A stretch of 62,666 bases of DNA from Caedimonas sp. (GTDB taxonomy: Bacteria > Pseudomonadota > Alphaproteobacteria > Caedimonadales > Caedimonadaceae): positions 1 to 62,666 of the forward strand of contig JAEUKR010000018.1 of the NCBI GenBank assembly GCA_016794245.1. The letters run 5' to 3'. A program made the position numbers and the translations under genes. Under the pieces are notes generated by a model. The model searched no databases. It worked only from the letters and a program-made list of their open reading frames with translations, and had not been told where the DNA came from. Position 1 is the first letter of the stretch. Each line of letters begins with the position of its first letter. Positions 9,033 to 58,223 of this stretch are shown here, piece after piece.

Positions 9033-9225
9033 GATTCAGACTCCTTATTGATTTTTTACAGATTGTAGCTGACGCAGGATCGAAAGACAAGAGGAGGGTA
9101 AAGATTTCATCCAAGACTATCTTAATCAAGGAATTTTGTGTACAAGATAAATACATCCTTCGTCTCTCAAAATCTCGGGGGTGTCGTATGGCGACGACTC
9201 GAAGGTCAAGCAATGGAGATAGTGC

Positions 9226-9900
9226 ATGTTAAGGTTAACGGTTATTATTATATTGATGGTTGCGGCGATCTTTTCCTTGGGAAAGGCGGGTGCCGTTTAT
9301 CTTGAAAATTATTACCCCCGTTTGGTGAAAATCCCTGAGAATGCCAAGGGTCTTATTTTGCTTGGAGGAAGTTTCCAAATGGAAAATTCTTCAGCGCGAG
9401 GGGTTATCTGTTACAATCCTCGCGGGGGTCGAATCATCGAATTCATGGAATTGGCGCAAAAGTATCCTCATTTGCCTTTGGTTTTCACAGGGGGAGCGAC
9501 AAAAGGCATTCCGGGGCGGCGCTCTGAAAGCGACATGGCGCGGCAACTTTTTGAAAATCTGAGATTGGATTTATCCCGCGTCCGCTTTGAAGATCAGTCG
9601 AATAATACCTTTGAAAATGCGACACTCACCTTCAAGATGGTTCAGCCTAAACCCGAAGATCAATGGGTTCTGGTCACTTCCGCCGTACATATGCCCCGAT
9701 CCGTTTCGCTTTTTCGTGCGGCTGGCTGGAATGTTATTCCTTATCCGGTAGACTATAATACGACAGGAAAAATCGGCGAAGTTCTGGATTTTGACATTTA
9801 CTCAGGATTTATAAGTTGGTCCCATAGTGTGCATGAATGGGGAGGTTTGCTAAACAGTCGTCTGAAGGGGGTAAGCCGGCAATTATTGCCGGATAAATAA
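9226..9900 (+). CDS. YdcF/SanA-like (DUF218) envelope protein
   Basis: This 224-residue protein has one N-terminal membrane anchor (about residues 4-24) and a periplasmic DUF218 domain. GLILLGGSF, PLVFTGGA, FEDQSNNTFENA and WVLVTSAVHMPRS are the conserved blocks. Members such as ElyC and SanA act in envelope and peptidoglycan precursor homeostasis. Upstream (about 9157-9185) lies the end of a family-A repeat (CCTTCGTCTCTCAAAATC), and a full family-A repeat begins exactly after its stop codon. Confidence 0.88.
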   Translation: MLRLTVIIILMVAAIFSLGKAGAVYLENYYPRLVKIPENAKGLILLGGSFQMENSSARGVICYNPRGGRIIEFMELAQKYPHLPLVFTGGATKGIPGRRSESDMARQLFENLRLDLSRVRFEDQSNNTFENATLTFKMVQPKPEDQWVLVTSAVHMPRSVSLFRAAGWNVIPYPVDYNTTGKIGEVLDFDIYSGFISWSHSVHEWGGLLNSRLKGVSRQLLPDK

Positions 9901-10012
9901 ACCCTTCGTCTTTCAGAATCCCCACGCCATCTTTGTCCACACAAAAAGTCTAAGGACGCGAGCAGGATGAAGCCCGATCCCCAACGCCCCTGAATTTTGA
10001 AAGACGACGGGC
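9901..10012. repeat. Family-A palindrome-ended repeat (full copy)
   Basis: This unit of about 112 bp has imperfect terminal inverted repeats: the left end is ACCCTTCGTCTTTCAGAATC, and the right end is GAATTTTGAAAGACGACGGG. Related copies occur in ubiA (14112-14228) and before pyrH (39725-39814), with partial copies near 9157 and 21919. Shared internal blocks include GCAGGATGAA/GCAGGACGAA. No open frame fills it. Size, inverted ends and dispersal resemble MITEs or Rickettsia palindromic elements. Confidence 0.7.
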
Positions 10013-10099
10013 ATAACAGTATTTCTCTGCCATTTTCTTTGCTTGCTCCTTTGCTTTCTTGCTATCTTGCCGCCTTGTTCATCAGGGAAAGGGGGCTTT

Positions 10100-13328: not shown

Positions 13329-13462
13329 AACGATGACCTTGATAAGGACTCAACTTAACAAAAGATCATCAGTGACATAAATCTGGTTCTTTGCCAAGTT
13401 TTTATTTGTAACAAAAGATTTCATTGGACTGTTCTTCGTCATGCCGTCAGAATCGCGGAATC

Positions 13463-14470
13463 ATGGGAAAGAAAATCACTTTTGTTATGAACCGTTTCAG
13501 TCCTTATGTTCAATTGGCGCGCCTGGATAAACCCACGGGGATCTGGTTATTGCTTCTGCCGTGTTGGTGGGGGCTTTTTCTCAGCAAGCCTGCTGAAATG
13601 CCTGTCAAAGAGATGACCTTGTTTCTATGGGGGGCTGTCCTGCTCAGAGGCGCAGGGTGCACCTATAACGACATCGTTGACCGCAAGTATGATGCGAAAG
13701 TGCGTCGGACGGCCTCAAGACCTTTGGCGGCGGGGGCTTTGACGCTCCATCAGGCCATCGGTTTTCTTGGCGTGCAACTCGTCGGCGGGTTCTGTGTGCT
13801 GATCTGTTTTCCCTCCCTTACGATACAACTTGGTCTTGCCTCGCTTATCCTTGTGGGACTTTATCCCTGGATGAAGCGCATAACCTGGTGGCCGCAAGCT
13901 TTCCTGGGTCTGACGTTTAATTGGGGCGTCCTTGCGGGATGGGCTTCCCTCAACCCCTCGCTCAGCAGCGCACCGGTTTTGCTTTACCTTGCAGGAATAT
14001 GCTGGACACTGGGGTATGATACGATTTATGCCTATCAAGATATCGAAGACGATATGCGTATCGGCGTTAAATCCTCTGCGATCGCCCTCCAACAACATCT
14101 CCCCAAAACATTTCGCCGAGTGGTCAGGTTCGGGCAAGGGCTTGGCAAATCCCGCGCGGTGTATGATCAGGATGTAAGCCGGACGACATCCGACACTCAA
14201 CACTCCCACAGTTTGAAAGACGAAGGGTATACATATGTTTTTTTGGGGATCACGTATGTCTTCATGGTGTTTTTCCTCACTCTCGCAGGCTTTTTGGAGG
14301 ATTTCTCGTGGCTGTATTATGCTGGCCTTGCTATCCTGGCTTTTCAGTTGGCCTGGCAAGTTGTGATGCTCAATATTCATAATCCTGATGACTGTATGGC
14401 CAAATTTAAATCTAATGTCTTGGCAGGCTTTTTAGTGCTTTTAGCCTTAATCTGCGGAAGCGCTCGGTAG
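13463..14470 (+). CDS. ubiA: 4-hydroxybenzoate polyprenyltransferase (UbiA) with repeat-encoded insertion
   Basis: This membrane prenyltransferase attaches the isoprenoid tail to 4-hydroxybenzoate in ubiquinone synthesis. Both Asp-rich Mg/diphosphate motifs are present: YNDIVDRKYD (68-77) and YDTIYAYQDIEDD (185-197). It has 335 residues from the ATG at 13463, where the family is usually about 290-300. The excess is a hydrophilic block at about 217-256 (ending SHSLKDEGY) between two membrane segments, encoded by a family-A repeat in frame. The start is uncertain: an in-frame upstream codon (13424) and an ATG at 13487 are alternatives. It is convergent with ligA. Confidence 0.93.
   Translation: MGKKITFVMNRFSPYVQLARLDKPTGIWLLLLPCWWGLFLSKPAEMPVKEMTLFLWGAVLLRGAGCTYNDIVDRKYDAKVRRTASRPLAAGALTLHQAIGFLGVQLVGGFCVLICFPSLTIQLGLASLILVGLYPWMKRITWWPQAFLGLTFNWGVLAGWASLNPSLSSAPVLLYLAGICWTLGYDTIYAYQDIEDDMRIGVKSSAIALQQHLPKTFRRVVRFGQGLGKSRAVYDQDVSRTTSDTQHSHSLKDEGYTYVFLGITYVFMVFFLTLAGFLEDFSWLYYAGLAILAFQLAWQVVMLNIHNPDDCMAKFKSNVLAGFLVLLALICGSAR
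14112..14228 (+). repeat. Family-A repeat inserted in frame within ubiA
   Basis: The right end TTTGAAAGACGAAGGGT matches the ends at 10012 (minor change) and 39814. The internal block ATCAGGATGTAAGCCGGA aligns with GCAGGATGAAGCCCGA of the 9901 copy and GCAGGACGAAACCTGA of the 39725 copy. The left boundary is approximate. It keeps the ubiA frame open and adds about 39 mostly polar residues after the second Asp-rich motif. Confidence 0.65.
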
Positions 14471-21906: not shown

Positions 21907-21962
21907 CGTTTATATTATACTCTTCGCCTTTCGGAATACTCTGGGTATAACTTCAAAGGAAA

Positions 21963-22349: not shown

Positions 22350-22490
22350 AATCATATACCCGGCCGATTTTGAAATCTGGACAGTTAGATAAGCGAGGAG
22401 TCCTGTACAGCGTAAAAAGAGCATATGAGGATATCGAGTGAGCTTTTAACGCCACAATATCCGCCAGATTTAGTCCAAGCAAGAAGTCCG
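22350..22490 (+). repeat. Mosaic of family-C and family-B repeats
   Basis: The first part (about 22350-22400) resembles family C (TACCCGGCCGATTTTGAAAT, then AGTTAGATAAGCG as near 30815). The second (about 22411-22488) matches inverted family B: GAGCTTTTAACGCCA and CCGCCAGATTTA recur at 43089-43180 in reverse as GAGCTTTTAACGCCA and CCGCCAGATATA. The block follows the SemiSWEET stop directly. Confidence 0.6.
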
Positions 22491-37534: not shown

Positions 37535-37894
37535 GGATCAATTTTACCTATATATTTTCAAGCTGTGAAGGTATTAAAGAAGGGCTTAAAACCAAATCAC
37601 GTCCTTATATAAGCATATCTGAGAGTTAAGGCAACCTTACCCTTCTTCCCGAAGGATCCTTTAGTCCACGAATCCCATAAGTTTCCATACCTTTCCATAA
37701 GTTGCTATACTTTCTCAAATTGCTTGATCTTCTGTCAGAGAAATTCTATAAGAACAGGAAACCTGATAATAATATTATTTATTATTGAATATCACACACA
37801 GGTTGCGGAGAGAATAAACTCAAATTCACTCCGCTCCGGTGCAACAAAGGTTGCAACACCTGTGGAGGATCAACCGGAGAAAGGAAGAAAAAAA
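37535..37894. promoter_or_regulatory. Divergent lgt / rpsB leader region
   Basis: This 360-bp gap has to carry promoters for lgt (-) and rpsB (+). CCTTC-TTCC-CGAAGG near 37638-37653 is a small hairpin. TTGCTATACTTT near 37697-37708 looks like a -10-type box (TATACT). A long untranslated leader before rpsB is plausible and could serve S2 autoregulation, but no known leader motif was matched. An in-frame upstream extension of rpsB (to 37724) is not conserved. Confidence 0.4.
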
Positions 37895-38771: not shown

Positions 38772-39701
38772 ATGAGTGAGATTACTGCGGCGGCTGTGAA
38801 AGAACTGCGTGAGCGTACAGGCGCGGGAATGATGGATTGTAAAAAAGCATTGGCCGAAGCGAAGGGCGATATGGAAGCCGCGATTGATTGGCTGCGGACC
38901 AAGGGATTGGCGGCGGCGGCCAAAAAAGCAGGGCGGACAGCCGCCGAAGGACTCGTAGGTGTAGCGACGGCAGGCCCAATCGGCGCCATCGTGGAAGTAA
39001 ACGCCGAGACGGATTTTGTCGCGCGTAATGACAAGTTCCAGGACTATATCAGGCAAGTAACGCAAATCGCTCTTCAAAAAGGGGGTGATATCGCGGCGCT
39101 CTCTTCCGCCGTTTACCCGGAGACAGGGCGGAACGTGAGTGAAGAATTATCCAATTTAATTTCCGTTATTGGCGAAAATATGACGCTTCGTCGCGCCAAG
39201 GTTCTGAAAGTCAATCAAGGCGTCGTGACAACTTACATTCACAATGCTGTTCAGCCAGGTTTAGGGCGGATCGGTGTCCTGGTCGCTCTTGAGTCTGCGG
39301 GAGACCCCACCCAACTTGAGGCGACCGGAAAACAGATCGCGATGCATGTCGCGGCGGCGATGCCTCAAGCTTGTACGATTGATGAGCTTGATCGTGAGGT
39401 GGTAGAGCGAGAGCGCAAGATTTTTGCCGAACAGGCGCGCGCTTCAGGAAAAAAGGAAGAATTTATTGAAAAGATGATTGAAGGTCGTCTGCGCAAATTT
39501 TACGAAGAAGCCGTATTGTCAGAGCAGATTTATCTGATTGATGACACTAAGCGACGGGTTTCGCAAGTCATCAACGATGTGGCTCAACACATCGGCGCTT
39601 CGATAAAGCTTACCGGTTTTGCTTTGTTCAAACTAGGTGAAGGCATTGAGCGAGAAGTGAAAGATTTCGCTTTGGAAGTCGCTCAACAACTCGGGAGATA
39701 A
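38772..39701 (+). CDS. tsf: Elongation factor Ts
   Basis: This 309-residue nucleotide-exchange factor for EF-Tu has an N-terminal UBA-like domain, ITAAAVKELRERTGAGMMDC with KKALAEAKGDMEAAIDWLR. VEVNAETDFVARND is the core signature contacting EF-Tu. The start may be 38769 or 38772 (two ATGs in tandem); the second has better spacing from AAAGGAA. It follows rpsB by 37 bp. Confidence 0.98.
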   Translation: MSEITAAAVKELRERTGAGMMDCKKALAEAKGDMEAAIDWLRTKGLAAAAKKAGRTAAEGLVGVATAGPIGAIVEVNAETDFVARNDKFQDYIRQVTQIALQKGGDIAALSSAVYPETGRNVSEELSNLISVIGENMTLRRAKVLKVNQGVVTTYIHNAVQPGLGRIGVLVALESAGDPTQLEATGKQIAMHVAAAMPQACTIDELDREVVERERKIFAEQARASGKKEEFIEKMIEGRLRKFYEEAVLSEQIYLIDDTKRRVSQVINDVAQHIGASIKLTGFALFKLGEGIEREVKDFALEVAQQLGR

Positions 39702-39724
39702 TAGGCAACCATAAAATCAGCTGT

Positions 39725-39814
39725 CAGATTCAAGCTGGGAAAGAAATCTGCGAGGAATGTGAGCAGGACGAAACCTGATGCACAACACCCCCCGGATTTT
39801 GAAAGGCGAAGGGT
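39725..39814 (+). repeat. Family-A repeat between tsf and pyrH
   Basis: The right end GGATTTTGAAAGGCGAAGGG matches those at 10012 and 14228. The internal GAGCAGGACGAAACCTGA aligns with both. The left terminal repeat is weak here, so this copy may be truncated. The element inserts an in-frame ATG (39778) upstream of pyrH, which produces a spurious longer frame, and it splits an otherwise compact translation operon. Confidence 0.65.
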
Positions 39815-39840
39815 CTGGTAAACAGAAAGTAGAAAGAGAG

Positions 39841-43080: not shown

Positions 43081-43088
43081 ACTTCTTT

Positions 43089-43180
43089 AGACCTCTTGCA
43101 TAACCTATATCTGGCGGATTCTTTTGGCGTTAAAAGCTCGCTCGAAATCCTCACGCCATATCTGGTTCTGCAAGAGGTCT
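43089..43180. repeat. Family-B repeat with perfect 12-bp terminal inverted repeats
   Basis: AGACCTCTTGCA (43089-43100) and TGCAAGAGGTCT (43169-43180) are perfect inverted ends of a 92-bp unit. The similarity continues inward: AACCTATATCTGGCG on the left and, in reverse complement, AACCAGATATGGCG on the right. The interior GAGCTTTTAACGCCA (reverse strand) recurs at 22440. No coding capacity. A MITE-like or palindromic element, or a dual-strand terminator for the gene before it. Confidence 0.75.
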
Positions 43181-43315
43181 TTTGACAACCCAAACAAGAG
43201 GTAGGGTAGGAGATTTTTAAAGATCAAAGTTATAAACCTTTTTTCTTTATGAAAAAAAAGGTATTTATAAAGATACCTGAAAATCATAAACTATTTTGAA
43301 AGAAAATCGGTTTTC

Positions 43316-50439: not shown

Positions 50440-50536
50440 TCTGACTTCATCATCAGTTTAGGACGCATTACTTTCCAATGGATTAATTTTTGAGAGAAAA
50501 ATAAAAAGGCGAAGGATATATAAAGCTATATAAAAG

Positions 50537-57881: not shown

Positions 57882-58223
57882 GGTTCCTCTGAATAACGGA
57901 ATCTCACTCTCCCCTATCCCATAGCATATTCTGCGCCCAACACCAACCGGGAAGCGCTGCTATCATACTTCTTTCTTACCTGGAATCTGGCGCACGCTTT
58001 TGCCTTAAAATCCCCACGCCATATCTGGTTAGAAAAGAAGCCTATTAAAAGCCGCATAAATTGCGGTTTCTTGCCTTTTGATCCTCTATCCTTGGAGCTG
58101 TTTCAACTTCATTGTGATTCATGTCTCATATTGTTATAGAATGCTTTAAAGTCGTTTGATCTTCGTGTACATATGGTTTGACATGAAATTTTTTGTCAAA
58201 ATGCCTAAGAAGCAGGATTTTCC
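57882..58223. other. gltX / MFS divergent gap with a family-B repeat
   Basis: This 340-bp region contains a family-B unit at 57966-58046 and an AT-rich stretch before the MFS start (58140-58200). The MFS ATG at 58224 is preceded by AAGCAGGA. No RNA gene or small protein gene is evident. Confidence 0.45.
57966..58046 (-). repeat. Family-B repeat copy between gltX and MFS
   Basis: CTTCTTTCTTACCTGGAATC and, at the other end, TATCTGGTTAGAAAAGAAG are roughly inverted. On the minus strand it reads CCAGATATGGCGTGGGGATT and AAGGCAAAAGC, nearly as GGATCTGGCGCGGGGATTTT and AGGCAAAAGC at 16702-16733. These two copies are the closest pair of the family. Confidence 0.65.

Follow-up and report, generated by a model that had tools for sequence, protein, structure and literature searches.

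An ERIC-type family of palindromic MITEs in the genome of an alphaproteobacterium

ERIC, also called IRU or RU-1, is a repeat of gut bacteria that serves in strain typing. Excerpts of six sources place it in Enterobacteriaceae and Vibrionaceae (PMC10969869, PMC2229807, PMC2267715, PMC2759123, PMC3751351, PMC11909080), and the excerpt of a 2024 MITE review among them gives these two families as its host range (PMC10969869). When transcribed, ERICs are known in Yersinia to affect mRNA stability, as stated in sections of PMC2229807 and PMC10969869. Movement of ERICs by transposases is without experimental support according to the pertinent section of a 2007 review, which in another section describes RPEs as elements of 105-146 bp that have TIRs and insert in frame into genes (PMC2229807).

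The window analysed here, i.e., the whole stretch of 62,666 bp, is contig 12 of a 1.33-Mb genome in 56 contigs (95.7% complete, 0.12% contamination). The AlaS of this host was closest, among the matches listed, to that of Caedibacter sp. 38-128 (68%), and the remaining 79 AlaS loci among these matches, nearly all from named Alphaproteobacteria, gave 58-64%. Because its closest named AlaS relative is Caedibacter, the host was taken to be an alphaproteobacterium. The initial annotation had reported dispersed, palindrome-ended repeats at five places in the window (9901, 14112, 39725, 9157, and 21919), and a repeat was present at all of them. The window was scored with R1, a covariance model built from 16 full-length copies of this family (family A) with no ERIC in training, and with nhmmer and end patterns. 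The features of family A and of a second element, B, were as follows.

9152..9192, minus strand: solo A right end of about 40 bp (3-mismatch end match; outer limit set by eye)
9152-10015, and L177:4028-4923: DUF218/ElyC-like genes between inverted A right ends
9898..10015, plus strand: family A copy, mosaic (R1 58.7 bits, E 8.8e-12)
9917..9952, minus strand: B-derived piece in the 9901 copy, AATCCCCACGCC...AAGTCTA, the left part of B in reverse (direct-repeat family D2)
13424..14470, plus strand: ubiA ORF, 4-hydroxybenzoate octaprenyltransferase, interrupted by an A copy (TIGR01474 and PF01040, the match having a break at residue 225)
14098..14231, plus strand: family A copy of 134 bp (132 + TA), in frame in ubiA (R1 69.7 bits, E 1.3e-14)
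21916..21949, no strand assigned: 34-bp form, both A ends joined without the interior (2-mismatch right end and sequence)
22355..22429, plus strand: left portion of A, model positions 1-76, in an A/B chimera (nhmmer E 1.7e-7)
22407..22488, plus strand: B right part of the A/B chimera, with the junction to A inside the core common to both (nhmmer B 62-144, E 1.3e-10)
39745..39817, plus strand: family A right half between the tsf-side and pyrH-side ORFs (R1 33.8 bits, E 2.3e-5)
43088..43181, minus strand: short form of element B, 94 bp, TAGACCTCTTGCA...TGCAAGAGGTCTT (both ends, sequence, nhmmer E 5.9e-9)
50504..50520, plus strand: 17-mer resembling the A right end (3 mismatches; R1 without a match there)
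58008..58053, plus strand: element B remnant (repeat family D3, 76% to the 43145 copy)

The copy at 9898..10015 starts at the TAA stop of an upstream ElyC/DUF218-like ORF (9226-9900). For the right half at 39745..39817, nhmmer gave an E-value of 8.7e-12 over 39753-39814; the R1 boundaries were 39652-39817, of which 39652 is a forced left end, and real similarity begins near 39745. The two places that had been annotated as partial copies do carry repeats of the family, and they are more precisely a solo right end (9152) and a form made of the two ends only (21916-21949). In addition, the A/B chimera at 22355-22488 and the second MITE (43088-43181, with a remnant near 58009) had been missed. Two different DUF218/ElyC-like genes are each flanked by A right ends in inverted orientation, at a distance of some 0.9 kb, which may be coincidence.

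The consensus of the aligned family A copies is a 128-nt palindrome with TATACCC at its left end and GGGTATA at its right end. R1 matched at least 149 places of the 1.33-Mb genome at the E≤1 cut-off, all but three of them below 0.01, and this count is a lower bound because 150 of the 921 candidates were scored. A blastn search with the 9901 copy alone gave 64 matches genome-wide (E≤10). Moreover, the right-end 17-mer GAAAGACGAAGGGTATA, with up to 3 mismatches, was found 209 times genome-wide vs. 8 times for a control pattern read backwards, and 7 times in the window vs. 0.12 expected from 100 shuffles. With 64 blastn and 149 R1 matches, the concern that few further copies might exist, or that they might align no better than shuffled DNA, does not apply; the palindrome-ended repeats are indeed dispersed, and the family is much larger than had been noted, with a density of about one copy per 9 kb in the host genome. 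Chance or low-complexity similarity was ruled out by the shuffles, a scan of E. coli DNA (below), and the reversed and shuffled end controls.

The anatomy of family A was evaluated in the 75 best-scoring long copies out of 148 R1 matches. The limits were sharp in these copies, similarity beginning with TATACCC and ending with GGGTATA between unrelated flanks; the modal length was 128/129 nt, and TA was present at the left end in 52 and at the right end in 47 of the 75. Shorter forms of about 80-94 nt were also found, as well as the 34-nt form with both ends alone, which occurs in L042, L157, and L182 in addition to the window. Among the top 13 copies (139-149 bits), whose sites are unrelated, the majority are near-identical and two agree in every letter. 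About a dozen near-identical copies at unrelated sites thus form a young subfamily and point to recent movement. The mean pairwise identity among 53 length-matched copies was 0.70. The earlier description of the copies as diverged and old was right, with the young subfamily to be added. Family A is short, non-coding, and multicopy, with TIRs and TA ends, as MITEs are. No Rfam family matched family A in the window or in a young copy (L142).

Family A was further compared with the 127-nt E. coli RU-1/ERIC consensus, as given in an excerpt of PMC2759123. The two consensus sequences were identical in 86 of 133 columns (z 10.8), with an alignment score of 32.0 vs. -17.6 ± 4.6 for 5000 dinucleotide shuffles (best 4.5) and a score of 4.5 in the reverse orientation. 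Furthermore, when R1 was applied to 80,088 bp of two E. coli chromosomes, in stretches chosen since each is known to carry one ERIC, exactly two matches were obtained up to E 5; both were ERICs, and both spanned model positions 1-128 over 127 bp. The likeness extends to the length (127 vs. 128), the TATACC..GGTATA ends, the fold into one long hairpin with the same apical loop, and the intergenic location with rare in-frame gene fusions. Unlike ERIC, family A resides in an alphaproteobacterial host, is about 35% diverged, reaches about one copy per 9 kb in its 1.3-Mb genome, and forms mosaics with B. Since this host lies outside the reported ERIC host range, we speak of an ERIC-type element, or homologue, and reserve the plain name ERIC for the narrower group. 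Searches of the open-access literature showed no mention of ERIC from Alphaproteobacteria, nor any of the common core described below. In addition, Rfam RF02818 V_AS5 (Vibrio RNA AS5) matched the E. coli ERICs and the ERIC-type loci of the f97 genomes end to end, all of these matches being below the gathering score, and V_AS5 therefore describes a Vibrio ERIC; it gave no match at E≤1 to the young copy L142.

Given its homology to ERIC, its exact common boundaries, its high copy number, and its young subfamily, family A is a real repeat, and its assignment to the ERIC-type MITEs, here with an alphaproteobacterial host, is well supported. The full explanation that we favour, with a probability of roughly 0.8, is that family A forms a branch of the ERIC-type elements in Alphaproteobacteria and moves as a TA-inserting MITE.

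Folding, which the initial annotation had proposed as a check, gave -54.1 kcal/mol for one family A copy (z -5.86) and a single long hairpin. When A copies, E. coli ERICs, and the elements of two genomes of the order were folded separately, the same apical hairpin was obtained. A joint alignment of 15 sequences yielded a 38-pair structure with 88.8% of cells paired and 20 pairs changed on both sides; both-side changes were counted in 75 cells vs. 30.9 ± 4.6 after shuffling, with slid controls reaching 19, for a structure derived from the very alignment on which it was scored. RNAalifold on 53 own-genome copies returned three pairs only. Own-genome pairing was in slight excess (81.3% vs. 79.0% ± 0.3 shuffled), and both-side changes numbered 82 vs. 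44 ± 6. Young copies kept 95% of the consensus pairs and older copies 77%, the structure used being the fold of their own consensus, which the young copies resemble more in any case. Because of this difference, most copies look like decaying passengers, and the hairpin seems to persist as long as copies multiply and to decay later. A resemblance to the hammerhead ribozyme, noticed by eye in one copy, was dropped as the consensus does not preserve the core letters.

Element B is a second MITE of 145 bp, TAGACCTCTTGCA...TGCAAGAGGTCTA, which also exists as a 94-bp form; its end pattern was found in 61 places of the host genome vs. 4 for the control. In the 9901 copy, the left 17-20 bp are the A right end reversed, followed by a B piece, grouped in direct-repeat family D2 with the B copies at 43146 and 58009, and then by the normal A right half. 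Because it is a mosaic, this copy is a poor type copy. At two other loci (L010 and L011), a complete B lies within the loop of an A copy, and insertion of B in A loops explains the make-up of the 9901 mosaic. The nested B has TA on both sides in L010, and in L011 the left-side letter is changed at the exact point; nesting with flanking TA fits TA insertion for B. Moreover, A and B have 24 nt in common at the core, with a score of 16 that only 2 of 3000 shuffles attained (mean 8.5). The B end pattern was also seen in the genomes G714 (76 places) and G554 (25 places). Inverted B-like ends were observed 2.2 kb apart around a pepA-like gene and a further ORF (L275, G000:C55:2976-5183), and a small SRP RNA gene (RF00169, L278:29-126) lies about 50 bp from a B copy.

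The core was followed beyond A and B with R2, a superfamily model trained on family A, ERIC, and relatives from the order. Its weaker matches were palindromes with other ends and the same centre, so that a core hairpin is common to family A, B, and palindromes with other ends. The pattern GAGCGTACN{2,8}GTACGTGAG was found in 25 of 398 Pseudomonadota genomes (144 places vs. 3 for the control). In the class, the pattern GSAGCGTACN{2,8}GTACGTGAG matched 257 places vs. 0 for the control, spread over 23 of 385 genomes; these place totals were summed from tables, and the patterns carry no information on ends. The E. coli ERIC core is a variant, GAGCTTAC..GTAAGTGA, that the strict patterns miss. In 30 of 34 places, the arms outside the core were more complementary than in any of 300 shuffles, though their letters differ, and three of the other four places were clearly without complementary arms. 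In one genome (G116), at least two end types surround the same centre of about 50 nt. Furthermore, 25 diverse cores were compared, after 11 of 36 candidates had been dropped for lack of the strict motif. Their 12 pairs were 91.7% paired, with 52 both-side changes vs. 18.4 ± 3.2 shuffled, and the internal loop, in which GSA faces GA, was nearly invariant, an invariance that is partly built in because the strict motif selected these cores. A kink-turn reading of this loop was dropped, since the second G.A is not kept. No core match was found in phages, and a literature search by core strings returned primer-like noise alone. The 0.9-Mb genome G554 had 122 exact core matches with more than one end type.

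A core-like 46-mer was also matched in 5217 of 5426 E. coli genomes (median 3 places), and the three matches examined (L304, L305, and L306) all lay between pheM and pheS. Like family A, the palindrome there is a long hairpin whose tip carries the core, CCGGAGCGTAC..GTACGTGAGGATTTCGAG; unlike family A, it is longer and has different arms and ends. This palindrome of the pheST leader region is unannotated there and possibly belongs to the RSA family.

The part of these findings most likely to be new is a possible grouping in which ERIC, A, B, the pheM-pheS palindrome, and numerous palindromes between genes of Alphaproteobacteria and of further Pseudomonadota make up one previously unrecognised superfamily, defined by the core hairpin with its purine-rich internal loop and not by the ends. 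We give this grouping nearly even odds. The central hairpin is a separate module, present in palindromes with other ends as well, and under this grouping it would act as a bound RNA or ssDNA module recombined with different terminal repeats. The comparison separates the element into ends and core, the core being the part common across Pseudomonadota, and the question of what ERIC does becomes a question on one hairpin of about 22 nt with a fixed internal loop.

Somewhat more doubtful, though a serious alternative, is the reading that the core hairpin (stem GCGTAC/GTACGT, GSA/GA loop) functions, as RNA or ssDNA, as a binding motif for a conserved host factor, with the ends as interchangeable vehicles; the elements would persist because binding of the putative factor helps the host or the element. 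The occurrence of the core in the class and phylum samples with controls near zero, the nearly invariant loop letters, the covariation of the core arms, and the complementarity of outer arms that differ in their letters all speak for such a function. However, old own-genome copies lose pairing, the invariance comes partly from the selection of the 25 cores by the strict motif, and conservation could also come from the need to move.

The spread of ERIC-type elements across Proteobacteria bears on the origin of family A. In 10 named alphaproteobacterial genomes, one of them Caedibacter, R1 had no match below E 0.6, and it was positive in 3 of 57 relatives, the own genome among them. Over 10 genomes of the order, R2 was positive in 3, with 91, 50, and 3 matches at E≤1e-4, where some places were counted on both strands and all three positive genomes were in training. 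The order members G017 and G019 carry the element, and three same-family genomes were without it according to R2. With 8 or 9 candidates scored per genome, R2 was positive in at least 39 of 398 genomes of the phylum sample and in at least 18 of 385 of the class sample, in which some matches (e.g., L242 and L245) are not complete-looking elements. Members outside training with TATACC-type ends were found in G631, G704, G635, and G124, and two G631 copies agreed with A in 100 and 104 of 130 columns. Recent horizontal transfer of an ERIC-type element into the host from a gammaproteobacterium would suit the patchy distribution, with three same-family genomes lacking the element and G017, G019, and a few other alphaproteobacterial families carrying it. 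Such a transfer is nevertheless unlikely, as the consensus is about 65% identical to ERIC, the alphaproteobacterial members are closer to each other (104/130 for G631 and A), and the host has many diverged copies, with a mean pairwise identity of 0.70. An alphaproteobacterial branch of the ERIC-type elements remains our preferred reading.

A core-carrying palindrome was observed within an alphaproteobacterial tmRNA gene in G478 (L250/L301; L250:1501-1616 inside 1271-1833, Rfam alpha_tmRNA, E 2e-67). Insertion in the tmRNA gene is a reported habit of RPEs in Rickettsia. In addition, a different palindrome beside an ERIC-type copy (L237:1695-1867) resembles Rfam WsnRNA46 (Wolbachia sRNA 46), on both strands and below the gathering score.

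As for mobility, family A would move as a MITE: a transposase acting in trans would excise it at the terminal TA and insert it at another TA, and the gene for this enzyme may be lost, missed, or outside the assembly. TA was observed on both sides of B nested within A, and no empty site of A was seen. The initial annotation had suggested looking for a transposase with matching ends, and none was found: a genome-wide search for an IS630 DDE transposase (DDE_3) gave nothing over the cut-off, the 27 intervals between A ends within the analysed 29% of the genome held non-transposase ORFs only, as judged by eye from their translations, and the 2.2-kb interval between B-like ends held the pepA-like ORF and others with no transposase seen. 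An autonomous parent among the intervals bounded by A or B ends was dropped for the same lack of a transposase ORF. Spread as a REP-like hairpin by a Y1/HUH (RAYT-type) enzyme, and not by a TA-specific DDE transposase, would be in keeping with the strong hairpin and with a genome that has no IS630-type transposase over the cut-off, but TA at both ends and the TA-flanked nested B fit DDE insertion at TA better, and we regard the Y1/HUH route as quite unlikely. By analogy with Yersinia ERIC, transcribed copies may act as RNA hairpins that alter mRNA processing or decay. The near-identical subfamily, in a genome of 1.3 Mb, offers a small system for seeking the ERIC mobiliser.

The location of family A is near-wholly intergenic. 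Although 84% of the sequence examined lies in ORFs, 71 of the 75 copies were outside called ORFs and 4 inside. The gaps between neighbouring genes that hold a copy were tandem in 34 cases, divergent in 25, and convergent in 12, vs. 169, 65, and 66, respectively, among all pairs of neighbours in the sequence examined. In the tandem gaps, where copies are often no more than some tens of bases away from the upstream stop, 13 were sense and 21 antisense, indicating no strong strand preference; these location and orientation counts rest on crude ORF calling. Under a slightly different rule, 5 of the 75 copies were spanned by an ORF, and Pfam supports three of these ORFs. In ubiA (14098-14231), where the insertion reads as ...RAVYDQDVSRTTSDTQHSHSLKDEGY..., and in a CAF17/ygfZ-like gene (L176), translation passes through the element, in both genes in one and the same frame (QHxHSLKDEGY); these are the two clear in-frame cases among the 75 copies. 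In a TPR ORF (L172), the copy is confined to the N-terminal region and touches none of the domains, and the true ORF start is therefore doubtful. The ygfZ/CAF17-like gene (L176:955-2076, reverse strand) also has a second extra stretch of about 45 residues in its C-terminal domain, perhaps another in-frame repeat.

The initial annotation had called the repeats old or fast-evolving and compared their size and habit with the RPEs of Rickettsia. The comparison holds for size and occasional in-frame insertion, but most copies (71/75) lie outside ORFs, and the sequence relative that could be demonstrated is ERIC. That family A is a Rickettsiales-type RPE family unrelated to ERIC is very improbable: its size, TIRs, and in-frame insertions into conserved genes resemble the described properties of RPEs, but the copies are mostly intergenic, the in-frame location that is frequent in RPEs was clear in two of 75 copies, the host is not Rickettsia by AlaS, and family A matches ERIC in sequence and boundaries, although kinship with ERIC and kinship with RPEs need not be exclusive. 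The chance that the likeness between A and ERIC reflects palindrome convergence or coincidence is practically negligible: palindromes do have compositional features in common, but none of the 5000 dinucleotide shuffles came near, the reverse orientation scored 4.5 vs. 32, and R1 found the two ERICs alone in 80 kb of E. coli DNA. Family A is thus best described as a branch of the ERIC-type elements.

Apart from the repeats, an rpsB sRNA (Rfam RF01815, 43.9 bits) was observed at 37793-37891 of the window, upstream of rpsB.
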